This document shows positions 2,760-35,988 of a stretch of DNA of 64,000 nt, in pieces; positions within the stretch are counted from its first letter, which is position 1, and every line of letters starts with the position of its first letter. This DNA is from Haloferax litoreum (GTDB lineage Archaea > Halobacteriota > Halobacteria > Halobacteriales > Haloferacaceae), in assembly GCF_009674605.1 (NCBI RefSeq), contig NZ_WKJO01000001.1, forward strand, positions 2,914,001 through 2,978,000, in the 5' to 3' direction. The notes beneath the pieces are model-generated. The model was not told where the DNA came from. It did not search any database and was given only the letters and a program-made list of their open reading frames with translations. The position numbers and the translations under genes were made by a program.

Positions 2760-3599
2760 CTACTGGATGTCAGCGGTCGTAAAGCGCAGATATCCCAATA
2801 CGAGCGGAAGTGCACACCATAGTCCGAGAATCAGGAATCCGACCCAGTCGTCGAGGTACACTGCGCTTCCTTCCGGATAGGACGTAATCTCACCGTACTG
2901 TGGAATGACCGCCTTCGTTGCTTTCATGAAGGCAGTCGAAGGGTTGAGCGTCCCGACGAATTTGAACCAGTCGGGTAACCCCGCCTCCGGGATATCGTTC
3001 CCGTAAATCGCCAATTGGAGGAGGAGAAGCAGAACGTCCCATCCCAGCAGAAAAAGTGAGTACAGTGCTCCTGCACCGACGAATGCCCGCGTTCTCGACT
3101 TCATCCCCGCCGAGAAGCCCGTAGCGAGGCCGATGTAGACAGTCCCGTAAAGTATCGTCAGGAGCGTGTATTGACCGAAGACGACGGCGTCGAACGACTC
3201 GTAGGTCGCCAGAGCGATTGCCCCTGCGACGGTATAGCCGACGAGTATCGACACACCGATGACGGCAGTTCGCCCGACAAACTTCCCGAAGACGACTTCT
3301 GCTCGCGAATTTGGTAGGCTCAAGAGGAATCGGATTGTCCCGCTCTCCAGTTCACCCGCAACAGTGTCGTACGCGAGACTCAGACCGATTAAAGGGACCA
3401 TGAACACTGTGGGCTGTCTCATACTGTTCAAGAGTGCCAGCGTGCTTCTGTTCGCAGTGCTGTCTTGATACATGAGGGGAATCCACTGTATCGTGGCGAG
3501 CCACGTGGCGAACGCGACGAACAGCAACGTCGTAGTGAGGAGGGAAAGCGACCGTATCGAGTCCCGGAAATCTTTCTTTATCACTGCGGGGAGGGCCAT
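2760..3599 (-). CDS. ABC-2 family transporter permease
   Basis: A 279-residue protein that begins MALPAVIKKDFRDSIRS, the typical cytoplasmic start of ABC-2 permeases, followed by about six hydrophobic spans: one near residues 18-40, one after the amphipathic block AYDTVAGELESGTIRFLLSLP (a hallmark of the family), then four more to the end. It should form the membrane part of an exporter. I chose the ATG at 3599 because an AT-rich box lies about 28-30 bases upstream; a GTG at 3620 would add seven residues. No ATP-binding subunit lies beside it, so the partner must be encoded elsewhere. Codon choice is less GC-rich than in its neighbours. Confidence 0.8.
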   Translation of the reverse strand: MALPAVIKKDFRDSIRSLSLLTTTLLFVAFATWLATIQWIPLMYQDSTANRSTLALLNSMRQPTVFMVPLIGLSLAYDTVAGELESGTIRFLLSLPNSRAEVVFGKFVGRTAVIGVSILVGYTVAGAIALATYESFDAVVFGQYTLLTILYGTVYIGLATGFSAGMKSRTRAFVGAGALYSLFLLGWDVLLLLLQLAIYGNDIPEAGLPDWFKFVGTLNPSTAFMKATKAVIPQYGEITSYPEGSAVYLDDWVGFLILGLWCALPLVLGYLRFTTADIQ

Positions 3600-3742
3600 G
3601 AGTATCACCACACCTGTCAATCAAATGTATTTTTCGCACGTCGTCATCTCGGTACTCGTGGCTGTGCAGTCGTATCGTCGTCCTGCTGGCAGCACAGCAT
3701 CCACACCGTAGCGCCTATCTCTCTCAACACGGTATCGCACCC

Positions 3743-4453
3743 ATGGCATCCGAGTGGGTCAGTCTCTTCTCGGGCGGCAAGGACTCCTCGTGGGCGCTCT
3801 ACCGGGCGCTCGAAGAGGGATTGAACGTCACCCGCCTCCTGACCGTCCACCCGAGCGACGACTCGTACATGTACCACGTGCCGGCGACCGACCTCACCGC
3901 ACTCGCGGCGGAGAGCATCGGCATCGAACACGTAAACGTCCATCCCGGCGATTTGGAAGCGACCGACGCCACCGACTCCGGCGAACAGGGCGACGCCGAA
4001 CTCGAACCGCTCGAAGCGGCCATCGAAGAACTTCAATCCGAAATCGACCTCGCAGGCGTCACTGCGGGCGCCATCGAGAGCGAGTTCCAGACGAACCGGA
4101 TTCAGGGGATGTGCGACCGCCTCGGTATCGACCTCTTCGCACCTCTCTGGCAGGAGGACCCGCGCGAACTCGGCGAGGCGATGCTCGACGCCGGGTTCGA
4201 AATCACGCTGATTCAGGTCGCCGCGCACGGCCTCGACGAATCGTGGCTCGGCCGAACACTCGACGAAGAGGCACTCGACGAACTCGCAGAACTCAACGAG
4301 CAGTACGGCGTCCACGTCCTCGGCGAGGGGGGCGAGTTCGAGACGTTCGTCACCGACGGGCCCCACATGGACCGCCCGATTGAACTCGAATACGAGACCG
4401 AGTGGGAAGGGACACACGGGCGACTCCGCATCACCGACGCGTATCTGGACTGA
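3743..4453 (+). CDS. dph6: Diphthine-ammonia ligase (Dph6-type ATP-pyrophosphatase)
   Basis: A 236-residue protein with an N-terminal PP-loop (SLFSGGKDSSWALYRAL, residues 7-23) and the motif AGVTAGAIESEFQ near residue 110, both typical of the diphthine-ammonia ligase family. The block CDRLGIDLFAPLWQEDP is also diagnostic. It would catalyse the last, ATP-dependent amidation step of diphthamide synthesis on the histidine of elongation factor 2. It is a cytoplasmic enzyme, standing alone between a permease gene and a nucleotidyltransferase gene on the opposite strand. The length is usual for archaeal members. The C-terminal TDGPHMDRPIELEYETEWEG segment also fits. Confidence 0.88.
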   Translation: MASEWVSLFSGGKDSSWALYRALEEGLNVTRLLTVHPSDDSYMYHVPATDLTALAAESIGIEHVNVHPGDLEATDATDSGEQGDAELEPLEAAIEELQSEIDLAGVTAGAIESEFQTNRIQGMCDRLGIDLFAPLWQEDPRELGEAMLDAGFEITLIQVAAHGLDESWLGRTLDEEALDELAELNEQYGVHVLGEGGEFETFVTDGPHMDRPIELEYETEWEGTHGRLRITDAYLD

Positions 4454-4523
4454 GGTGACTATCCGGGATTCGTCTCGAACACGTACAAAATAGAACGCTG
4501 TTCTGCGAGTGCGGCAGTCGTTT

Positions 4524-5492
4524 CTACTGCCCGTTCGTCAACCGTGAGTGTGCGCCGATGAGCGCGTTCGAGAGGTCGAGGTTCTCGATGTGCGTCTCCT
4601 CGTCGACGATGGAGTTCTTCAGGTCGGCGTTGCGGATGATTGCACCGGGGAAGACGACCGACTCTTCGAGACTGGAGTTCTCGACTGTCGCGTTGGCCAT
4701 GATATGGACGTTCTGTCCGAGTTCGGTGTTCGTCACCGTCGCCGTGTCGTGGATGAAGTTCTCGCCTTCGAGGTACCACGCCACTGCGTCGAGGTAGCTC
4801 TGCGGCGTGCCGATGTCGAACCACGCGCCGTCGAAGGTGTACGCGAACACGTCGCCGTTCTGTTGCAGCCACTGCATGAACCAGCCCGGTTCGTCGGGGT
4901 TGTTGTCGCCGGAGAGGTACTCGTCGAACTTCGGCAGGTCGCCGGCAGGAATCGCGTAGCACGCGATGGAGACGAGCGTGCTCTTCGGGTTCTCGGGCTT
5001 CTCTTGGAAGCTGACGACGCGGTCACCGTCGAGTTCGACGAGACCGTACGATTTCGCGCGTTCGAGGTCCTTCACGTCGTAGGCGGCCAGAGTCGGTGCT
5101 TCCTTCTCGTAGAAGAAGTCCACGAAGTCGGCGACGTCGAAGCTGATGAGGTTGTCGCCGGCGATGACGACGAGGTCCTCGTCGACTTCCTCGCGGTCGA
5201 TGAGTTGGGCGAGTGCACCGACGACGCCGAACTTCTCGTCCTCGGCGCTGGTGTCTTCGACAGATAGCGTGGGCTTCTCGTACGGTGACTCGTCGATGTA
5301 CGTCTCGAACGACTCTGCGAACCGCTCGTTCGTGCTCACGAACACCTCGGAGACTCGGTCGTCGGCTTCGAGGTCTTCGAAAATGGTGTCGATAACCGTC
5401 TGGTCACCGACCGGGAGGAACATCTTCGGTCGGTGTTTGGTAATCGGCCACAGACGCGTTGCGTACCCACCGGCAAGGACGACTGCCTTCAT
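4524..5492 (-). CDS. Sugar-1-phosphate nucleotidyltransferase with left-handed beta-helix tail
   Basis: A 322-residue protein. The N-terminus MKAVVLAGGYATRLWPITKHRPKMF is the classical nucleotide-binding signature of NDP-sugar pyrophosphorylases. Metal/substrate motifs (IAGDNLISFD near residue 105, EKPENPKS near 160, FDIGTPQSYL near 222) are present. From about residue 245 a hexapeptide-repeat tail follows (ATVTNTELGQNVHIMANATV). It likely makes UDP- or dTDP-activated sugar from a sugar-1-phosphate for surface glycans or N-glycosylation. The substrate cannot be read from sequence. The ATG at 5492 starts the conserved motif directly; an upstream in-frame start would add nine unconserved residues. 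No glycosyltransferase gene is near. Confidence 0.85.
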   Translation of the reverse strand: MKAVVLAGGYATRLWPITKHRPKMFLPVGDQTVIDTIFEDLEADDRVSEVFVSTNERFAESFETYIDESPYEKPTLSVEDTSAEDEKFGVVGALAQLIDREEVDEDLVVIAGDNLISFDVADFVDFFYEKEAPTLAAYDVKDLERAKSYGLVELDGDRVVSFQEKPENPKSTLVSIACYAIPAGDLPKFDEYLSGDNNPDEPGWFMQWLQQNGDVFAYTFDGAWFDIGTPQSYLDAVAWYLEGENFIHDTATVTNTELGQNVHIMANATVENSSLEESVVFPGAIIRNADLKNSIVDEETHIENLDLSNALIGAHSRLTNGQ

Positions 5493-5607
5493 GTCCCTCA
5501 AATCCCACCACGTGGTCAAGGTCTTTTTGCATCCTCTCTATTTTGCTGACAGTTCGACGTGGTCGCACGGCGGAAGGAACTTTCCCCTCGGATACTAACC
5601 TCGTCCC

Positions 5608-5907
5608 ATGTCAGACCGGGAGTCTACCGCGACGACCCGCCAGCGTATCGCCGACGCCCTCCGCGCCGACCCGGCAACCGCCTCCGAACTCTCGACGAGT
5701 CTCGGTGTCCCTGCGTCGTCGGTCTACGGCCATCTCCAGCACGTCGCTCGCACCATCCAGAGTGAAGGCGACGAACAATTTCTCGTCGCCCCACCCGAGT
5801 GCCGAAACTGCGGATTCAGTGCCTTCGACGACCCGGTGAACTACCCCTCGCGGTGTCCCGAGTGTCGGAGTGAAGGTATCGAAGAAGCAGTCTTCAAAAT
5901 CGGGTAG
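5608..5907 (+). CDS. Small transcriptional regulator: winged helix plus zinc ribbon
   Basis: A 99-residue protein. Residues 8-55 form an HTH (TRQRIADALRADPATASEL, recognition part VPASSVYGHLQHVART). Residues 66-90 have two CxxC pairs (CRNCGF and CPECRSEG) that should bind one zinc. This architecture matches predicted archaeal regulators of the COG3357 type. It is likely a DNA-binding protein of unknown targets. It is divergent from the nucleotidyltransferase gene, with a 115-base shared upstream region, so either could be a target. Confidence 0.8.
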   Translation: MSDRESTATTRQRIADALRADPATASELSTSLGVPASSVYGHLQHVARTIQSEGDEQFLVAPPECRNCGFSAFDDPVNYPSRCPECRSEGIEEAVFKIG

Positions 5908-5931
5908 CGAAGTCAGCATCGACGACGCCAC

Positions 5932-6777
5932 TCAGAACGTGGCAATTTCTCTGTTGTGGTATTCGAGATACTGCTCGTCAACCTCGTGGTCATCGCGAAC
6001 GTACAGTGACGCACCGTCGATGTCTCGGTCGTATGCGTGTGCGATGGTCTTCGAATCGGGGTCGATTGCGAGCATCCCGTAGTCGAAATCTGCGTGATGG
6101 TCAGGGCAGAGAACGAGAACGTTCGCTTCGACGTCAGGTCCGCCATGAGGTCGGCCGAGTGGTTTGAGATGGTGGGCTTCCGCGTAGCCATCGTCCACAT
6201 TCCGTCGCCGCCGGTCTCCACAGACCTGACACGTGTGCGAGTATCGTTCTTTGAGTGCGGACGTGAGTTTCGTGTTTCTGATGATTCGACTTCGTGTCGT
6301 TTGGATTCTCTCAGGAGGCGAGAGGTCCGGTGTCGACTCGGCAGCATCCACCCGTTCTTCGTGTTCGGCCCGACGCCTGAGGACGAACTGGAATACCTCT
6401 CTGTCATCCGTATCGAACGGGCCGCACTCGTGGGAAACGACTTCGACTTGGCCTTGGTATTCCCAGTCAGCGTTGTTGTCTGGCCTGTGGAAAAAGAAGA
6501 TAGGAAGCGGGTTATCCTCGGCTTGCGCGAGAAACTTATTTCCACCCGTGAGCGTCTGGTCACCCGTCCGACCTTCGCCGATGTACGTGAATTGACCACC
6601 GGTTACATCATCCGCATACGGTCCTGTGTCACTCGAAAAGAGTCGAAGGTAGCGTTGCTCGTCGTCGTCGTAACAGATTTCGATGCCGCGTCCGGTCATC
6701 CCTCGGTCGAACCGGGCCTCCAGTTCTGAACCACTGAGACGTTCTCCGGGGGTGAGCGAAAGGTCTGCTAACTTCAC
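5932..6777 (-). CDS. SRA-like plus HNH endonuclease, probable modification-dependent (Type IV) restriction enzyme
   Basis: A 281-residue two-domain protein. Residues about 10-135 contain the block GGQFTYIGEGRTGDQTLTGG followed by NKFLAQ and IFFFHRP, resembling the SRA-type modified-base readers fused to HNH nucleases in ScoMcrA/TagI-type enzymes. Residues about 165-235 form an HNH/McrA nuclease: CQVC zinc pair, EAHHLKPLGRPHGG, then NVLVLCPDHHADFD with the catalytic Asn and His. This predicts cleavage of DNA carrying modified bases. The start is a GTG at 6777. The gene stands alone, with no methylase, and is visibly less GC-rich than its neighbours, suggesting acquisition. The nuclease call is firm; the SRA-like reader is moderate. 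Confidence 0.75.
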   Translation of the reverse strand: MKLADLSLTPGERLSGSELEARFDRGMTGRGIEICYDDDEQRYLRLFSSDTGPYADDVTGGQFTYIGEGRTGDQTLTGGNKFLAQAEDNPLPIFFFHRPDNNADWEYQGQVEVVSHECGPFDTDDREVFQFVLRRRAEHEERVDAAESTPDLSPPERIQTTRSRIIRNTKLTSALKERYSHTCQVCGDRRRRNVDDGYAEAHHLKPLGRPHGGPDVEANVLVLCPDHHADFDYGMLAIDPDSKTIAHAYDRDIDGASLYVRDDHEVDEQYLEYHNREIATF

Positions 6778-6840
6778 GACGGCACCGATGTAACCCCACC
6801 GAAAAAGTGTTACCTCACTGCCTGTAGTTGTCGATCCGAC

Positions 6841-7524
6841 TTACAGTTCGTCCAGTTCGTCGAGGAGCGTCTGCGCCCCTGCTGCCGACGACCCCGGACC
6901 GCGCGCCGTGATGAGGTCACCATCGACAGTCACACTTGTGTCGGCGTCGAGTTCGGCGTCCCAGACGCCACCGGCGGCCTTCACTTCGTCTTCGACCCAG
7001 TAGGGCAACTTCCGGCCGTCGGGCATCAGGTCGTCGTCGTCGACGATTCCTTCTTCCCACTCGTTCGGGAACCCGGTGACGTTGCGCCCGTCGACGAGGA
7101 ACGACCCGTCCGCCTCGCGGGTGAACGCGAGGATGCCGACGGCGTGGCAGACGACGAGGGCCTTGCTCTCGCCACCGGCGACGGCCTGCAAGAGTGCCTG
7201 TCGGGCGTGGCGGTCCTGATTGACGTCCCACTCGGTCCCGTGCCCGCCGGGGAAGACGACGGCGTCGTATTCGCGGGCGTCGACCTGTGCGAGTTTCTCG
7301 GGGTTCTGGAGACGTTCGTCGTTCTCGTGAACCTCCATCACGTGTTCGGCGAGTTCTTCGCCGACGTTCTCTGGGTCGACGGAGCGTTCGTCGACGACGG
7401 GGACGCCGCCAGTCGGTGTGGCGACGGTGATATCGACACCAGCGTCGCTCAGCGTGGTCAGTGGTTCGATACACTCCTCGCCCCAGTAGCCATGCTCGCT
7501 TACGATAAAGAGTGCTGACGTCAT
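6841..7524 (-). CDS. DJ-1/PfpI family (class I glutamine amidotransferase-like) protein
   Basis: A 227-residue protein starting MTSALFIVSEHGYWGEECIEPL. The flavodoxin-like fold carries the nucleophile elbow ALVVCHAVG with the catalytic Cys near residue 128, preceded by VVFPGGHGTEWD. Members act as glyoxalases, deglycases or chaperone-like proteins in stress defence; which applies here is not evident. I chose the ATG at 7524 because homology begins there; an upstream in-frame start adds 30 basic residues that read like noncoding sequence. It lies 90 bases after the end of the peptide transporter operon on the same strand and might be transcribed with it. Confidence 0.83.
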   Translation of the reverse strand: MTSALFIVSEHGYWGEECIEPLTTLSDAGVDITVATPTGGVPVVDERSVDPENVGEELAEHVMEVHENDERLQNPEKLAQVDAREYDAVVFPGGHGTEWDVNQDRHARQALLQAVAGGESKALVVCHAVGILAFTREADGSFLVDGRNVTGFPNEWEEGIVDDDDLMPDGRKLPYWVEDEVKAAGGVWDAELDADTSVTVDGDLITARGPGSSAAGAQTLLDELDEL

Positions 7525-27413: not shown

Positions 27414-27539
27414 GCGGTCCAGTCTCGGTTCGTGGGTGTGTGCCGGTGGTGAGGTACCGTCCGACGCACCCGTGGACGAAGGGAAATGCACATACGCACC
27501 CGCAGTCCAACCGAGAGGTATGACAGGGGCTGGTCCAAC

Positions 27540-28877
27540 GTGCGCGTGATTATCGTCGGTGCCGGACAGGTCGGGTCGTCGATTGCGGCCGACCTGGACG
27601 CGACCCACGAAGTCGTCATCGTCGACTGCGACCCCGAGCGAGTGGACGAACTGAACTACTCGCTCGACGTGCTGGCGATTCGCGGGGACGGGACCTCCGT
27701 CGACACGCTCGAAGAAGCGGGCATCGAACGGGCCGACATGGTCATCGCCTCCACCGACGACGACGAGACGAACATCGTCGTGTGCGCGACGGCGAAGGCC
27801 GTCTCGTCGGCGTTCACCATCGCCCGCGTGAAGAACACCGAGTACCTCCGGACGTGGCAGCACTCCGAGAAGGCCTTCGGCATCGACTTCATGGTCTGTA
27901 CGAACCTGCTCGCCGCAGAGTCAATCGTCCGCGTCGTCGGCCTCCCCGCCGCACGCGACGTTGACCCGTTCGCCGGCGGCGAAGTGCAGATGGCCGAGTT
28001 CGAAGTCGACGACAACAGTCCGGTCGCCAACCAGACGGTCAGCGAGGCTGACCGATTCGACTCGCTGACGTTCGCCGCGATTCTCCGCAACGGTGCCGTG
28101 ACGATTCCCCGTGGTGACACCATCATCCGACCCGGTGACCGCGTCGTCGTCATCGGGAGTCCCCAGAGCGTCCAGGGGTTCGCAACGTCTATCTCACCAG
28201 ACGAATCTCCGGGGACGGCCGAAGAAGTTGTCATCGTCGGCGGGAGCGAAATCGGCTACCACGTCGCTCGTCTCCTCGAAGAACGCGGGTTCAAACCGCG
28301 CCTCCTCGAACAGGACCCAGAGCGTGCTCGTGAACTCGCCGAGCAACTGCCCGGAACCATCGTCATGGAGAGCGACGCGACAGATATCGACTTCCTCGAA
28401 CGCGAGTACATCGGCGACGCCGACTTACTCGTCTCCGCGCTCGACTCCGACGAGAAGAACCTGCTCGTCTCGCTTCTCGCGGCACGCCTCGGCGTCGAGC
28501 GAACTGTCGCCGTCATCGACACCACCCCGTACGTCGACCTGTTCGAAGCAGTCGGCGTCGACGTCGGCGTGAGTCCGCGCGAAGTTGTCGCTGAAGAGAT
28601 TACGCGTTTCACCCGCGAGGGGGGCGCAGAGAACGTCGCACTCATCGAGTCCGACAAGGCGGAAGTCCTCGAAATCGAAGTCGATGCCGATAGCGTCCTC
28701 GCCGGACGACCGATTCGCGAGTCGGTGACGTCGCTCCCGGAAGGTGTCGTCATCGGTGCAATCACCCGCCAGCGTGAGTTCATCACGCCGCGCGGTGACA
28801 CCGTCATCGAACCCGGCGACCACGTCGTCGTCTTCGCGGATAGTTCCGTCGTCGGCGACGTCGCCCCCAAACTGTAA
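27540..28877 (+). CDS. trkA: TrkA potassium uptake regulatory subunit, copy 1
   Basis: A 445-residue protein built as two tandem RCK units (TrkA_N, TrkA_C, TrkA_N, TrkA_C). The first Rossmann motif is VIIVGAGQVGSSIA at the very N-terminus; the second is VVIVGGSEIGYHVARLL near residue 230. TrkA_C blocks contain IPRGDTIIRPGDRVVVIG and ITPRGDTVIEPGDHVVVFA. It binds NAD(H) or other nucleotides and gates the TrkH channel. I chose GTG 27540, which places the Rossmann strand directly at the start; an upstream ATG would add 18 residues unlike TrkA. TrkH follows 117 bases on. Confidence 0.92.
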   Translation: MRVIIVGAGQVGSSIAADLDATHEVVIVDCDPERVDELNYSLDVLAIRGDGTSVDTLEEAGIERADMVIASTDDDETNIVVCATAKAVSSAFTIARVKNTEYLRTWQHSEKAFGIDFMVCTNLLAAESIVRVVGLPAARDVDPFAGGEVQMAEFEVDDNSPVANQTVSEADRFDSLTFAAILRNGAVTIPRGDTIIRPGDRVVVIGSPQSVQGFATSISPDESPGTAEEVVIVGGSEIGYHVARLLEERGFKPRLLEQDPERARELAEQLPGTIVMESDATDIDFLEREYIGDADLLVSALDSDEKNLLVSLLAARLGVERTVAVIDTTPYVDLFEAVGVDVGVSPREVVAEEITRFTREGGAENVALIESDKAEVLEIEVDADSVLAGRPIRESVTSLPEGVVIGAITRQREFITPRGDTVIEPGDHVVVFADSSVVGDVAPKL

Positions 28878-28994
28878 CGCTGGGCATCCCCCCGACAACG
28901 GCCACTGGGTCGCTAGCCACCACGTCACATGCTCTCGTAGGCGAGCGAGAACCCGAACAGGCAAGAACCCTGCGTCCGGAACGTTTCTCCACGA

Positions 28995-30599
28995 ATGAAA
29001 CTGCGCGTCGATTACAAAGCCAGCCTTCGTCTCGTGGGGACGGTCCTGAAGTATCTCGCAGTCCCCCTCTGTTTTCCCCTCGTCGTCGCGCTGTACTACG
29101 GTGAGTCGGTTCTCCCGTTCGTCGTCACGATGGCCGTCACGGTTCTCGTCGGCATCGGACTCGAACGTCTCGCCGACGAACCCGACATCGGCGCACGCGA
29201 AGGCTTCTTGATGGTCGCAACGACGTGGTTCGCGGTGACACTCGTCGGTGCGATTCCGTTCCTCATCGAGGCACACGGCGTTCCGTTCGTGACTTCGGCC
29301 ATCCACCCGGAGTCGACGCTCGGCAACCCGGTCAACGCACTCTTCGAGACGATGAGTGGGTTCACGACGACTGGGGCGACAGTCCTCGGGGACATCTCGT
29401 TCGAGTCCCACACTCGCAGTATCATGATGTGGCGGCAACTCACACAGTGGCTCGGCGGGATGGGTATCGTCGTCCTCGCGGTGGCAATCCTCCCCGAACT
29501 CTCGGTGGGTGGGGCGCAACTGATGGACGCAGAGGCACCCGGCCCCGGTATCGAGAAACTCACGCCGCGCATCGCCGAGACGGCACGCGCACTCTGGGGT
29601 GCGTACCTCGGCCTCACCGTCCTCGAAATCGTCCTCCTCTACAGCCTCCACGTCACCGGCAACGCGCCGAACATGGACGTGTACAACGCCATCGCCCACG
29701 GCCTGACGACGATGCCAACGGGCGGGTTCTCACCCGAAGCACGGAGTATCGAGGCGTTCTCTGCGGCCGCACAGTGGGTCATCATCCCGTTCATGGTCGC
29801 TGCCGGGACCAACTTCGCCCTCTTCTGGCACGTGCTGACGGGCGAACCGAAGCGACTCGTCCGCGACACGGAGTTCAAGTCCTACCTCGGCATCATCGGT
29901 GTCATCTCGGCCATCCTCGCGGCAGTCCTCTTCCTCGGCGACGGACTCGTGTCGGTGGCTCCGGCGGGCGAGACGTACGACCAGTTCTACCTCGAAGGCG
30001 TTCGAACGGCGCTCATCGGCAACGTCGAACCGTCGCTTCGACAGTCGATATTCCAAGTCGTCTCTATCGTAACGACGACTGGCTACGCGAGCATGGACTT
30101 CAACGCGTGGAGCGCACCGACGCAGTACGGCCTGCTGTTCGCGATGTTCATCGGTGGGTCGGCCGGGTCGACTGGCGGGGCCATCAAAATCGTTCGCTGG
30201 TACGTCATCCTGAAATCGCTCCGCCGCGAGTTGTTCACGACTGCACACCCCGAGGCGATTCGCCCGGTCAGACTCGCTGGTCGCGCCGTCGACGAACGCG
30301 CCATCCGCGGTATCTACGCGTTCACGCTCCTGTACCTCGTGCTGTTCTTCGTCTCGACGGGCTTGCTCCACCTCGATGCGGCCCGTATCGACCTCGGACT
30401 GAGCGTGCTGGAGTCGATGAGTGCCGTCGCCGCGACACTCGGGAACGTCGGGCCGGGATTCGGTATCGTCGGACCCATGGGGAGTTATCTCGACTTCTCG
30501 AACAGTTCGAAACTGTACATGGTCATCCTGATGTGGATGGGTCGTCTCGAGATTCTCCCGGTGTTCGTCCTCTTCACCCCCGAGTATTGGCGGCGGTGA
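28995..30599 (+). CDS. trkH: TrkH family potassium uptake membrane subunit, copy 1
   Basis: A 534-residue polytopic protein. The fourfold pore architecture of the Trk/Ktr/HKT family is visible through filter-like blocks: ETMSGFTTTGATVLGD, GLTTMPTGGFSPEARSIEAF, SIVTTTGYASMDFNAW, and MSAVAATLGNVGPGFG. The N-terminus MKLRVDYKASLRLVGTVLKY is cytoplasmic. It conducts K+ inward, gated by a TrkA partner. Since this organism type uses high internal K+ for osmotic balance, it is likely important. Flanked by two trkA genes. Confidence 0.93.
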   Translation: MKLRVDYKASLRLVGTVLKYLAVPLCFPLVVALYYGESVLPFVVTMAVTVLVGIGLERLADEPDIGAREGFLMVATTWFAVTLVGAIPFLIEAHGVPFVTSAIHPESTLGNPVNALFETMSGFTTTGATVLGDISFESHTRSIMMWRQLTQWLGGMGIVVLAVAILPELSVGGAQLMDAEAPGPGIEKLTPRIAETARALWGAYLGLTVLEIVLLYSLHVTGNAPNMDVYNAIAHGLTTMPTGGFSPEARSIEAFSAAAQWVIIPFMVAAGTNFALFWHVLTGEPKRLVRDTEFKSYLGIIGVISAILAAVLFLGDGLVSVAPAGETYDQFYLEGVRTALIGNVEPSLRQSIFQVVSIVTTTGYASMDFNAWSAPTQYGLLFAMFIGGSAGSTGGAIKIVRWYVILKSLRRELFTTAHPEAIRPVRLAGRAVDERAIRGIYAFTLLYLVLFFVSTGLLHLDAARIDLGLSVLESMSAVAATLGNVGPGFGIVGPMGSYLDFSNSSKLYMVILMWMGRLEILPVFVLFTPEYWRR

Positions 30600-30740
30600 A
30601 CGACTGCTGTCGGGGACTCTTCTACCGACTGTCTCGACCCACAGACGGTGGCGTCTTTTCACGTCCGCACTCCGGAGCAGAAATGTTGATGGGTGTGGTA
30701 CTTCACTCGTGAGTATGAGAAACACGCGAGGGTGTCGTCC

Positions 30741-32078
30741 GTGCGCGTAGTCATCGTCGGCGCGGGCGAAGTCGGGTCGAACATCGCAGCGAGTCTCGCC
30801 GATTCACACGACGTCGTCGTCGTCGATGTCGACCCCGACCGAGTCGAGGAGTTGAACTACTCACTCGACGTGCTGGCGATTCACGGCGACGGTGCCGCGA
30901 TAGAGACCTTAGAAGAGGCCGACGCCGGGAGTGCCGACCTCCTCATCGCGAGCACCGACCACGACGAGACGAACCTTGCGACCTGCGGCACGTCCAAAGT
31001 ACTCGGCGACGCGTTCACCATCGCTCGCGTCAAGCACGTTGGATTCCTCAGGACGTGGGAACGCTCGTCTGGGGCGTTCGGCGTCGACTTCATGGTCTGT
31101 TCGAACCTGCTCACGGCGGAGGACATCGTCCAGATTATCGGTCTCCCCGCGGCAGTGGACGTCGAGTGGTTCGCAAACGGCCTCGTGCAGATGGCCGAGT
31201 TCGAAATCGGCCCGGAGAGTCATCTCGTCGGGCAGACGGTCCAAGAGGCCGACCAGTTCGACCTGCTCACGTTCGCCGCGATTCTTCGGAACGGCGACGT
31301 AGAGTTACCGCGCGGAGACAGCACACTTGACGCCGGTGACCGTATCGTCGTCATCGGACCGCCCGAACGAGTCTACCAGTTCGCGACGACTGCGTCGCCG
31401 AACGACGCAGCGACCGACACAGAGAACGTCTTCGTCGTCGGCGGGGGGGAAATCGGCTTCCAGACAGCGCGATTACTCCAAGAACGCGGCATCAAACCGC
31501 GCCTCATCGAAGAAGACCCAGACCGCGCCCGCGAAGTCGCAGAGACGCTGTCGGACACACTCGTCTTCCAGTTCGATGCGACCGACACGGAGGCACTCGA
31601 ACGAGAGAACTTCGGGGCCGCCGACACCGTCGTCGCGGCCCTCGACAGCGACCAAGAGAACCTCCTCGTCTCACTTCTCGCCAAACGACTCGGGGTCAAT
31701 CAGACCATCGCCGTCGTCGAGACTGGCGAGTACCGCGACGTGTTCGAGGCCGTCGGCGTCGACGTGGCGGTGAACCCGCGCGTCGTGACCGCCGAAGAGA
31801 TAACTCGAATCACGCGTGAGGAGACGACGGAGAAACTCACCTTCATCGAGGACGACCGGGCCGAAGTCATCGAAGTCGAAGTCGACGAGAAGAGTGCGCT
31901 CGCCGGTGAGATGATTCGGGAGTCGATTCCGCGGTTACCGAAAGGTGTCGTCGTGGGTGCCATCGCACGCGAGCAAGAACTCGTCTCCCCCCGCGGCGAT
32001 ACGGTCATCGAAGTCGGCGACCACGTCGTCCTCTTCGTCGACGAACGCGTCGCCGAAGAGGTTACCTCGTCGGTGTAA
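30741..32078 (+). CDS. trkA: TrkA potassium uptake regulatory subunit, copy 2
   Basis: A 445-residue paralogue of the protein at 27540, the same length and colinear throughout. It has two Rossmann motifs (VVIVGAGEVGSNIAASL; VFVVGGGEIGFQTARLL) and TrkA_C segments (LPRGDSTLDAGDRIVVIG; SPRGDTVIEVGDHVVLFV). The shared block VEELNYSLDVLAIHGDG marks a recent duplication. Starts at GTG 30741. It converges with the second trkH 18 bases beyond, and either TrkH could be its partner. Confidence 0.92.
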   Translation: MRVVIVGAGEVGSNIAASLADSHDVVVVDVDPDRVEELNYSLDVLAIHGDGAAIETLEEADAGSADLLIASTDHDETNLATCGTSKVLGDAFTIARVKHVGFLRTWERSSGAFGVDFMVCSNLLTAEDIVQIIGLPAAVDVEWFANGLVQMAEFEIGPESHLVGQTVQEADQFDLLTFAAILRNGDVELPRGDSTLDAGDRIVVIGPPERVYQFATTASPNDAATDTENVFVVGGGEIGFQTARLLQERGIKPRLIEEDPDRAREVAETLSDTLVFQFDATDTEALERENFGAADTVVAALDSDQENLLVSLLAKRLGVNQTIAVVETGEYRDVFEAVGVDVAVNPRVVTAEEITRITREETTEKLTFIEDDRAEVIEVEVDEKSALAGEMIRESIPRLPKGVVVGAIAREQELVSPRGDTVIEVGDHVVLFVDERVAEEVTSSV

Positions 32079-32096
32079 CGCGACGGCCCTCGAACC

Positions 32097-33641
32097 TCAC
32101 GAGCGCCAGTACGACGGCGTGAGGATGATGAGGACCGACAGAATCTCCAGACGACCGATCCACATCAAGAAGACCATGTAGAGCTTCGCCGCGTTCGAGA
32201 ACGGGAGGAAGTTGTTCATCGGCCCGGCGATACCGACACCGGGACCGATGTTTCCGAGCGTCGCGATGGCGACGCCGACGGCCTCGATACCGGAGAGTTC
32301 GAGCCCGATTCGGAGGCTATCGAGGTAGATGAGGACCGTCGAGACGGCGAAGATGGCGAGGAACGTCATCGTGAAGACGAACAGGCCGCGGATGGTCGAC
32401 TCGTCGACGACGTCGTCGGCGAGGCGAACGGGACGGACCGCGTCGGGGTGGACCGACGTGAACAACTCGCGGACCGCCGCTTTCTGGATGAGGTACCAGC
32501 GAATTATCTTGACCGACCCGGCCGCAGACCCGGCGGACCCGCCGAGGAACATCGCCAAGAGGAGAACGACCTGTGCCGACTGGTCCCACGTGTTGAAGTC
32601 CATGCTCGCGTAGCCAGTCGTCGTCACGATTGCGACGGTCTGGAAGACGGCCTGTCGGACCGCGTGTTCGAGGTCACCCGGAATCGTGGGGACGTTGGCC
32701 GGCACCACGTCGAGACCGAGGCCGGTAAAGAGGAGGACCGAGAGGACGCCCCCCACGAGACCCATCATCAGGAGGTACGACCGAAACTCGGCGTTCTTCG
32801 TCAAGCGCTCGGGTTCGCCGGCGAGGACGTACCAAAACAGGGCGAAGTTGGTTCCGGCGACGACCATGAAGACGACGACGGCCCACTGAATCGCGGGCGA
32901 GAACGCTTCGACGCTCCGTGCTTCCGGCGAGAACCCGCCCGTCGGAAGCGTCGAGAGGGCGTGGGCGAGTGCGTTGTAGAAGTCCATGTTTGGTGCGAGA
33001 CCGGCGAGGTGCAATCCGTAGTAGACGACCATGGCGGCGATGGTGAAGCCGATGTAGATTCGCCAGAGTGCGCGGGCCGTGTCCCGAATCCGAGGGGTGA
33101 GTTTCTCTATCGACAGCCCCGGCGCTTCCTGGTCGATGACCTGCGCACCACCGACCGAGAGTTCCGGAAGAATCGCGACCATCAGAACGATGATTCCCAT
33201 CCCGCCGAGCCACTGGGTCACCTGCCGCCACATCATGATGCTCCGAGTGTGCGTGTCGAACGAGATGCTACCGAGGACTGTCGCCCCAGTCGTCGTGAAT
33301 CCGCTCATACTCTCGAAGAGTGCGTTGACCGGTGTGGCGACGGTTCCCTGCCCAGCGACGAGGTACGGAATCGACCCGACGATGGGGACCGCAAGCCACG
33401 TCAGACTCACCAACAGAAAGGCTTCGCGGTGCCCGAGGTCCGGGTCCGACCGGAGACGTTCGAGGCCCACCCCGACGACGACCATGACGGCCATCGTGAC
33501 GACGAACGGGACGGGACTCTCGCCGTAGTAGAGTGCGACGGCAATCGGCAACAACGGCGGGAGTGCCATGTACTTGATTACCGACCCGAGGAACCCCAGA
33601 CTCGTCCGGTAATCGACGTAGGTTTTGAAATTCGCGTTCAT
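32097..33641 (-). CDS. trkH: TrkH family potassium uptake membrane subunit, copy 2
   Basis: A 514-residue paralogue of TrkH at 28995. Matching filter blocks are SMSGFTTTGATVLGS, ALSTLPTGGFSPEARSVEAF, AIVTTTGYASMDFNTW and VAIATLGNIGPGVG. I chose ATG 33641; a GTG four codons upstream (33653) is possible. It is transcribed toward trkA copy 2 and away from the APC permease gene. The two TrkH proteins differ mostly in loops, suggesting different affinity or gating. Confidence 0.92.
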   Translation of the reverse strand: MNANFKTYVDYRTSLGFLGSVIKYMALPPLLPIAVALYYGESPVPFVVTMAVMVVVGVGLERLRSDPDLGHREAFLLVSLTWLAVPIVGSIPYLVAGQGTVATPVNALFESMSGFTTTGATVLGSISFDTHTRSIMMWRQVTQWLGGMGIIVLMVAILPELSVGGAQVIDQEAPGLSIEKLTPRIRDTARALWRIYIGFTIAAMVVYYGLHLAGLAPNMDFYNALAHALSTLPTGGFSPEARSVEAFSPAIQWAVVVFMVVAGTNFALFWYVLAGEPERLTKNAEFRSYLLMMGLVGGVLSVLLFTGLGLDVVPANVPTIPGDLEHAVRQAVFQTVAIVTTTGYASMDFNTWDQSAQVVLLLAMFLGGSAGSAAGSVKIIRWYLIQKAAVRELFTSVHPDAVRPVRLADDVVDESTIRGLFVFTMTFLAIFAVSTVLIYLDSLRIGLELSGIEAVGVAIATLGNIGPGVGIAGPMNNFLPFSNAAKLYMVFLMWIGRLEILSVLIILTPSYWRS

Positions 33642-33854: not shown

Positions 33855-35237
33855 GTGAGTCACTCTGGCGGACGTGAGCCTTCGGTTAGCCTCAGTCTGT
33901 TGGACGCGACGATGGTCGGTATCGGCGCAATGATTGGGGCAGGAATCTTCGTTCTGACCGGCCTAGCCGTCGACATCTCTGGCCCGGCAGCACTCGTGGC
34001 GTTTGCTCTCAACGGGGGCGTCACGACGTTCACAGCGCTCTCGTACGCCGAACTAGCCTCGGCGATTCCGCGAAACGGCGGCGGGTACGCGTACGTCCGA
34101 GAAGTGTTCTCCGCACCCGTCGCCTTCGTCATGGGATGGACGCGCTGGTTCACGTACATGATTGCCGGGTCGCTCTACGCGCTCGGATTCGCCTCGAACT
34201 TTCTCGAATGGGGCCACATCTACGGCATCACGCTCCCCGGCCAACCAGTGTTGTACGCACTGGGTGCCGTCGTGGCGCTCGTCGCGCTCAACGGCCTCTC
34301 GACGGAAGCGTCGGGACGAGGCGAGACGGTCATCACCATCGTCAAAATCGCTATCCTCGCCGTGTTCGTCGTCTTCGGCCTCACGGCGACGCGAGTCAAC
34401 GAGTTCGACCCGCTCTTCACGAAGGGCCCGTTGTCGCTCCTGCCCGCGATGGGCCTGACGTTCATCGCGTTTCAGGGGTACGACCTCATCGCCACCGTCA
34501 CCGAGGAAGTCGAGAACCCGCAGGTGAACATCCCGCGAGCGATTCTCTTGTCAGTCCTCGTCACCGTCGTCGTCTACCTCTTCGTCGTCTTCGTCGCCAT
34601 CGGAACGCTCGGTGCCGAAGAACTCGCCGGGGCGGGTGAGACGGCCATCGCACAGGCGGCGGAGGGGTTCATGCCGTCGTTCCCGATAATCGGAACTGGT
34701 GCGTCACTCATCGCCTTCGGGGCGGTGTTCTCGACGATTTCTGCGCTCAACGCAGTCGTCATCGGGTCGTCGCGGGTGGCGTTCGCGATGGGTCGTGAGC
34801 GCCAGTTGCCCGCCCGTCTCGGCCGGTTCCACCACCGGTACGGGACACCGCTCGTGGCGATTATGGCCTCTGCGGTGGTGATGCTCATCGCCGTCGTCGT
34901 GGTTCCCATCCGTATCGTCGGAAATCTCGCGAGTCTGTTCTCGCTTCTGGGGTTCATCATCGTCAACTACGCGTTGATTCGACTCCGGCGACGACAACCC
35001 GACCTCCAGCGACCTTTCGAGGTTCCGTTCTACCCGGTCACGCCGATACTCGGTATCGTCTGTAACGCGCTTCTCGGGTTGTTCATCGACCCGTTCACGT
35101 GGATACTGGCTATCGGCTGGTTGCTCTTCGGTGGTGTCGTCTACCTCGCGTTGTCGAGGCGGGGCGACATCGGCCCATCGGGTCCACCGGAGATTCAGGA
35201 ACCGGAGCCAATCCAGACGACAGACACCGACGACTGA
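33855..35237 (+). CDS. APC-family amino acid/cation permease
   Basis: A 460-residue transporter when started at GTG 33855 (an ATG at 33789 would add 22 His/Ser-rich residues, but a TATA-like TTTATC at 33775-33780 places transcription near or past it). About twelve spans. The first carries MVGIGAMIGAGIFVLTGLAV, the unwound substrate-binding helix of the APC superfamily; GGGYAYVREVF and FIAFQGYDLIATVTEEVENP are also typical. The C-terminus (DIGPSGPPEIQEPEPIQTTD) is cytoplasmic. Amino acid uptake is the family default. An RCK-domain gene follows after 88 bases, which hints at nucleotide-gated transport. Confidence 0.87.
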   Translation: MSHSGGREPSVSLSLLDATMVGIGAMIGAGIFVLTGLAVDISGPAALVAFALNGGVTTFTALSYAELASAIPRNGGGYAYVREVFSAPVAFVMGWTRWFTYMIAGSLYALGFASNFLEWGHIYGITLPGQPVLYALGAVVALVALNGLSTEASGRGETVITIVKIAILAVFVVFGLTATRVNEFDPLFTKGPLSLLPAMGLTFIAFQGYDLIATVTEEVENPQVNIPRAILLSVLVTVVVYLFVVFVAIGTLGAEELAGAGETAIAQAAEGFMPSFPIIGTGASLIAFGAVFSTISALNAVVIGSSRVAFAMGRERQLPARLGRFHHRYGTPLVAIMASAVVMLIAVVVVPIRIVGNLASLFSLLGFIIVNYALIRLRRRQPDLQRPFEVPFYPVTPILGIVCNALLGLFIDPFTWILAIGWLLFGGVVYLALSRRGDIGPSGPPEIQEPEPIQTTDTDD

Positions 35238-35325
35238 GGAACCGAGACAGACTCGCCCCACAGAACCGACACCGACCAAACAGACCACCGAGACCACTAC
35301 GACAGTCCCACACGAATATACACTC

Positions 35326-35988
35326 ATGCCAAAACCAGTGACTCAGGATTTACGCGTCATCATCGGCGGCGGGGGAGAGATGGGCGTCCGTACGGCCGAA
35401 CTCCTCTCAGACCGCGGCCACGACGTCGTCATCGTCGAATCCGACCCGGACCGCTGCAACGAACTCTCCGAGAAGTACGTCGCGACCATCATCGAGGGTG
35501 ACGCCTCGCGCCCGGAGAAACTCAGACAGGCCCAACCCGAACGAAGCGACGTGGTCGCCGCGTTGACCGACGACGAGACGACCAACTTCGCCATCTGTAT
35601 GGCCGCCCAGCGGATGTCGGACGCTCGAACCGTGATGCGCATCAACGAGACACCGGACGAACTCTACGAGGAGTTCGTGGATGGTCTCGTGTTCCCGGAG
35701 CGACTCGGTGCCCGCGCGGCGACGAACGAAATCGAGGTCAGCGGCGTCAGAACTATCGAGGACATCGGCGGCAACGTCGAAGTCGTCGAAGTCGAAGTCG
35801 CCGACGACGCACCCGTCGCCGGAAAACGACTGGACGAGGTTCGCCTGCCGCGCGGGAGTCTCATCATCGTCGACTACCACGGCAACCGACTCGGTGGCCC
35901 CGACACGCTCCTCGAAGCGGGTCACCGCTACGTCCTCGCCGTCGAGTCGAACGTCGCCGACGAAGTGATGAACCTGTTCCGCGGGTAG
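35326..35988 (+). CDS. Short RCK protein (TrkA_N plus TrkA_C)
   Basis: A 220-residue single-unit RCK protein, half the length of the TrkA proteins nearby. TrkA_N runs from residue 9 (LRVIIGGGGEMGVRTAELLS) to about 130; TrkA_C from about 140 (EVVEVEVADDAPVAGKRLDE) to the end (GHRYVLAVESNVADEV). The GGGGEMG loop keeps the nucleotide-binding glycines. It follows the APC permease on the same strand and probably regulates it, or less likely the Trk channels. TrkA_C domains in other organisms bind c-di-AMP, a point relevant here only by analogy. Confidence 0.87.
   Translation: MPKPVTQDLRVIIGGGGEMGVRTAELLSDRGHDVVIVESDPDRCNELSEKYVATIIEGDASRPEKLRQAQPERSDVVAALTDDETTNFAICMAAQRMSDARTVMRINETPDELYEEFVDGLVFPERLGARAATNEIEVSGVRTIEDIGGNVEVVEVEVADDAPVAGKRLDEVRLPRGSLIIVDYHGNRLGGPDTLLEAGHRYVLAVESNVADEVMNLFRG

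Follow-up and report, generated by a model that had tools for sequence, protein, structure and literature searches.

RCK proteins are textbook gates of K+ channels. The locus described here, from Haloferax litoreum, raises the question of what such a protein does directly behind a permease of the APC family. The window (the whole stretch of DNA that was analysed, 64,000 nucleotides) carries the two genes on the same strand, with the following features:

33855..35237, + strand: APC-family permease, likely of the amino-acid transporter type (460 aa, GTG start, PF13520)
34344..34346, + strand: codon of Lys164 in TM5, by alignment the equivalent of GkApcT Lys191 and of the MjApcT TM5 lysine
35238..35325, + strand: gap of 88 bp from the APC stop to the RCK start
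35326..35988, + strand: stand-alone single-RCK protein, proposed regulatory subunit (220 aa, ATG start, PF02254 and PF02080)
35368..35385, + strand: predicted nucleotide-binding loop G15-x-G17-x-x-G20 of RCK_N (from sequence, conserved in the alignment)
35773..35982, + strand: RCK_C (TrkA_C) domain, residues about 150-219 (PF02080, strands in the model)

The open reading frames and the Pfam scan agree with the earlier note, which had placed an RCK gene 88 bases behind an APC gene. The permease (P0001) matches PF13520 (AA_permease_2) with an E-value of 5e-54, while the RCK protein (P0002), which is 99% identical to a match from Haloferax profundi, contains TrkA_N at residues 11-109 (E 5.5e-23, protein) and TrkA_C at residues 153-218 (E 2.1e-9). 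An alternative start of the permease at ATG 33789 is possible; aligned relatives favour a start at the position of 33855. The same note had called the RCK gene half-length; 220 aa is a normal length for stand-alone RCK subunits. KtrA, KtrC and CabP are of the same size.

The co-occurrence check proposed in that note was run on two samples, and conserved adjacency was found in each. In the family sample of 60 genomes (the window's included; APC relatives taken at E<=1e-110), comparison of coordinates with the RCK search placed an RCK gene immediately downstream at all 28 APC places. In two further cases (L033, L037) the APC ahead of the RCK is frame-broken, and in one (L034) the RCK has no APC beside it. 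The class-wide sample covered 145 Halobacteria genomes, in each of which the best 20 RCK candidates were scored, so that weak copies may be undercounted. It contained 49 APCs of the window clade in 45 genomes, and at least 79 family RCKs in 49 genomes among the best 20 candidates per genome. Every one of the 49 clade APCs has an RCK neighbour, which is directly downstream and on the same strand in 47 cases. A divergent RCK was found at no fewer than 18 of the 49, and RCK genes on both sides at no fewer than 16; the divergent gene is a second copy, several such loci also carrying RCK downstream of APC. All 45 genomes with a clade APC also have the RCK (Fisher's test on genome presence of the two genes, p ~3e-33, a value that ignores phylogeny). 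The APC-RCK adjacency is far beyond chance.

In most loci the two genes either overlap slightly or are up to about 90 bp apart, and most relatives have a shorter gap than the 88 bp of the window, or an overlap. The pair is also present on plasmid pHS3 of Halobacterium salinarum R1, with an overlap of 11 bp, and on a Natrinema (Natrialbaceae) plasmid; among the matches listed in the plasmid search, APC-flanked ones occurred only in haloarchaea. Beyond the Haloferax synteny block, no gene other than the RCK was found to recur beside the APC. On pHS3 (L206, 1864-8481) the pair abuts a siderophore (IucA/IucC) cluster, and the divergent RCK is separated from the APC by a TnpB gene. Long open frames considered as fused APC-RCK genes (Rosetta-stone) proved to lie in a different reading frame from the APC. 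We do not rely on a tree and a distance correlation (r 0.69) that were built on mixed downstream and divergent copies.

The best solved relative of the window permease is GkApcT (5oqt, E 2.7e-55), and GkApcT and MjApcT are its best natural solved matches. Residues were counted over 71 paired APCs and their RCKs. K164, D210 and Y241, corresponding to Lys191, Asp237 and Tyr268 of GkApcT, are kept in all 71 permeases; the TM5 lysine stands in place of the Na2 sodium, as expected, together with PF13520, for an ApcT/CAT-like carrier. The proton-coupling Glu115 of GkApcT is replaced by Ala or Thr. A sequence search of solved structures with the window permease returned no match to KimA, whose acidic K+-coordinating residues D36 and D117 are absent from the 71 aligned permeases: the D36 position (TM1) has A at residue 29 in 69 of 71, with two gaps, and the D117 position (TM3) has A or T at residue 100 in all, both having been placed via GkApcT and not by direct alignment to KimA. 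Because the TM5 lysine, D210 and Y241 are kept and the K+ ligands of KimA are unmatched, the window permease is likely an ApcT/CAT-type carrier of amino acids, and K+ transport by it is unlikely. The analogy to KimA and K+ uptake drawn in the earlier note is not supported by these comparisons. A structure model of the permease (pLDDT 49.5) was too poor for fold comparison.

The RCK protein, which carries a single TrkA_N and a single TrkA_C domain in about 220 aa, is of the single-RCK, KtrA-like kind according to Pfam, the structure model and the fold match. Its model (m3143d9bc23d0) has a pLDDT of 82, with RCK_C weaker, and Foldseek ranks TM1088B (3l4b) first, followed by TrkA, MthK and KtrA. 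The GxGxxG...E/D motif is present as G15, G17, G20 and E38; E38 is kept in 71/71 RCKs and the glycines are near-invariant. The ATP/cation site of KtrA involves Arg16 and Glu125 (PMC11078986). Matched by motif, the Glu125-like position is E125 in 69 of the 71 proteins and the Arg16-like position is R18 in 50 of them, but E18 in the window protein. The nucleotide theme of the earlier note thus finds a counterpart in the aligned residues, by which the RCK is predicted to keep an adenine-nucleotide site like that of KtrA. In a tree, full TrkA stands apart from the half-RCK family to which the window RCK belongs, and APC-linked members are spread across that family. Another half-RCK family is found beside a dehydrogenase E1 gene (PF00676) in the window genome (L074, G000:C1:1454000-1461000, at 3147-3830) and in Halobaculum too (L153, L154; Pfam on L153).

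The cytosolic parts of related permeases provide further context. An RCK is missing from the 1.5-kb flanks of all seven other APCs in the window genome, five of which bear fused Usp tails. Across the phylum, the APCs next in similarity have 730-880 aa, with Usp in all eight that were scanned, and the aligned RCK-paired APCs end at about 460-535 aa. Usp (PF00582) was absent from the three paired APCs scanned with Pfam (P0001 and those of L206 and L208). Since the other APCs lack an RCK in these flanks and are mostly Usp-fused, as are the closest relatives, the window clade seems to have a separate RCK in the position of their Usp tail. A more distant APC subfamily also occurs near half-RCK genes: in L081 the RCK directly precedes the APC, and in L210 and L211 the order is RCK, Usp-like gene, APC (Usp E 5e-5 in L211; the L210 equivalent has no Pfam match). 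In Halobellus clavatus (L124, 4706-6654), a relative of the RCK stands directly behind an Ion_trans channel gene, a possible switch of partner. Taken with the Usp patterns, these loci suggest that either an RCK or a Usp can serve as the cytosolic controller of a membrane carrier. The L211 locus (3652-7415) continues after RCK, Usp and APC with a 544-aa protein, likely a K+ channel, in which a filter-like TTTGFGSD motif is combined with two RCK units.

Because the pair stands together in every sampled relative that has the transporter, the RCK is probably a control subunit of that transporter. The explanation we prefer, and hold to be probable from sequence and gene order, is that the two genes form an operon-like module in which the RCK serves an amino-acid transporter as a dedicated regulatory subunit that senses nucleotides. 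The RCK would assemble through its own domains into an oligomer, sometimes including the second, divergently encoded RCK, and this oligomer would dock on the cytoplasmic face of the transporter. A bound adenine nucleotide (ATP/ADP or NAD(H)), with c-di-AMP possibly at RCK_C, would then turn uptake up or down, and the separate RCK gene would do what fused Usp domains may do in related APCs. In this scheme we infer the physical contact, the formation of a ring, the ligand and the direction of control. The fuller picture of a nucleotide-gated amino-acid transporter, that is, a secondary APC carrier under a detachable RCK oligomer with two different RCK subunits in many species, the RCK replacing the fused Usp domains of related permeases, has about an even chance of being right.

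Several points count against a regulatory subunit. Of the 79 RCKs found among the best 20 candidates per genome, 65 adjoin an APC and 14 have no adjacent APC, and the L124 protein stands by an Ion_trans gene instead. The loci examined contained no protein in which APC and RCK are fused. The known RCK rings sit on dimeric or tetrameric channels, whereas many APC transporters work as monomers. The tail of the window permease is short, ending about 25 aa past the last predicted helix with no obvious docking domain, and R18 is replaced by E in the group of the window genome.

The first alternative is that the RCK is a regulator of a K+ channel or TrkH (KtrA- or TM1088-like) that is merely stored beside the APC, the link being thematic (amino acids and K+ as osmolytes) and not physical. 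Upstream of the pair, the window holds a K+ island (27486-33641):

27486..28877, + strand: full-length TrkA with two RCKs (NF007034, 758 bits, cut-off 344)
28995..30599, + strand: TrkH (PF02386, E 1.7e-77)
30741..32078, + strand: full-length TrkA with two RCKs (NF007034, 672 bits, cut-off 344)
32097..33641, - strand: second TrkH, transcribed divergently to the APC; Haloferax-group loci alone have TrkH close to the pair (PF02386, E 2.4e-66)

This neighbourhood favours a K+ regulator, as do the closest solved proteins (TrkA, TM1088B, KtrC/KtrA) and the Ion_trans gene in front of the L124 relative. Against it, TrkH lies within about 6 kb of the pair at nine Haloferax-group loci, whereas the other 46 named APC-RCK loci have none in that range, the two TrkH of the window are already matched by the two full-length TrkA, and an RCK stands beside every sampled copy of the APC clade. 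The partner adjoining the RCK is the APC, not a TrkH-type protein as in KtrAB. The outcome that the earlier note had set against its own proposal, an RCK acting only on TrkH, is thus disfavoured by neighbourhoods outside the Haloferax group, and it keeps some weight because a search for pair-bearing genomes lacking TrkH yielded none (TrkH in 26/26 tested). Overall, we regard a stored K+ regulator as unlikely.

It is similarly improbable that the pair is a functional unit in which the RCK has no direct effect on the APC and instead, say, senses nucleotides or redox state in solution and controls expression, or several transporters, in trans. Such a role would fit the several loci with two RCK genes to one APC, and also the RCK copies that lack an adjacent APC and have unrelated neighbours, HMG-CoA reductase and FttA among them; on the other hand, the RCK has no DNA-binding domain, the RCK proteins studied work on membrane partners, and co-occurrence with a single transporter clade is near-perfect. 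At two loci where a family RCK without APC adjoins HMG-CoA reductase (L214, L215; Pfam on L214), a hydrophobic 459-aa transporter-like open reading frame lies 1.2-1.6 kb away.

As for the second messenger, c-di-AMP is made by Haloferax volcanii (PMC6741144), in line with what the earlier note had said of haloarchaea. In the window genome, a gene with a diadenylate cyclase (DAC) domain is found close to an MscS-like mechanosensitive-channel gene (L079, G000:C1:2340000-2346000), which matches the dacZ-mscS2 arrangement of H. volcanii and makes c-di-AMP plausible as a cell signal in this organism. Compared with known c-di-AMP receptors, the RCK_C sequence gave no convincing match, only TM1088B-type domains being convincing, and its weak lactamase-type matches are due to chance. 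That c-di-AMP gates specifically at RCK_C, while the APC imports K+ as KimA does (the strongest version of the earlier proposal), is very improbable: c-di-AMP is bound by RCK_C of KtrA, CpaA and BusR and the cyclase gene is present, but the permease has no KimA match, A facing D36, A/T near D117 and a conserved lysine of the amino-acid type, and RCK_C matches no known c-di-AMP receptor convincingly.

If a dedicated regulatory subunit of the transporter is what the RCK provides, RCK control would reach beyond ion channels and antiporters to amino-acid carriers with the LeuT fold. RCK-regulated transport is already known; the APC would be a new class of partner. Open-access literature yielded descriptions of APC-Usp fusions and none of an APC with a stand-alone RCK. 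Genome annotation names these RCKs 'TrkA family potassium uptake protein', a label that would be misleading for the whole haloarchaeal family if the RCK controls an amino-acid carrier. The module would also offer a direct handle on the coupling of amino-acid uptake to energy or second-messenger state in salt-in archaea.

Among known systems, KtrAB and KtrCD resemble the locus in having a separate RCK gene of about 220 aa beside a membrane partner and a nucleotide site in RCK_N with positions like Arg16 and Glu125 (by motif, with E in place of the Arg in the window protein), but the partner here is an APC amino-acid permease and not of the KtrB/TrkH fold. The two-subunit TrkA ring of TM1088A and TM1088B (3l4b) supplies the best fold match, and its two distinct half-RCK genes are reminiscent of those loci here that carry a divergent RCK as well; it is described, however, as a K+ channel gating ring, without APC. 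Among natural solved proteins, the permease itself is closest to the CAT/SLC7-like GkApcT and MjApcT, sharing the TM5 lysine with both and the D210 and Y241 equivalents with GkApcT, but differs at Glu115 of GkApcT, and for these carriers no RCK partner is reported in the literature examined. KimA (KUP family, APC superfamily, controlled by c-di-AMP) likewise combines an APC-superfamily fold with cytosolic control, but has K+ as substrate, a fused cytosolic domain and K+-binding acids that the window permease lacks. The nearest APC relatives are the archaeal APC-Usp fusion permeases noted in the literature (PMC12159084), in which a cytosolic, typically nucleotide-binding domain also accompanies the permease; there the Usp is fused, whereas here the module is an RCK from a separate gene.
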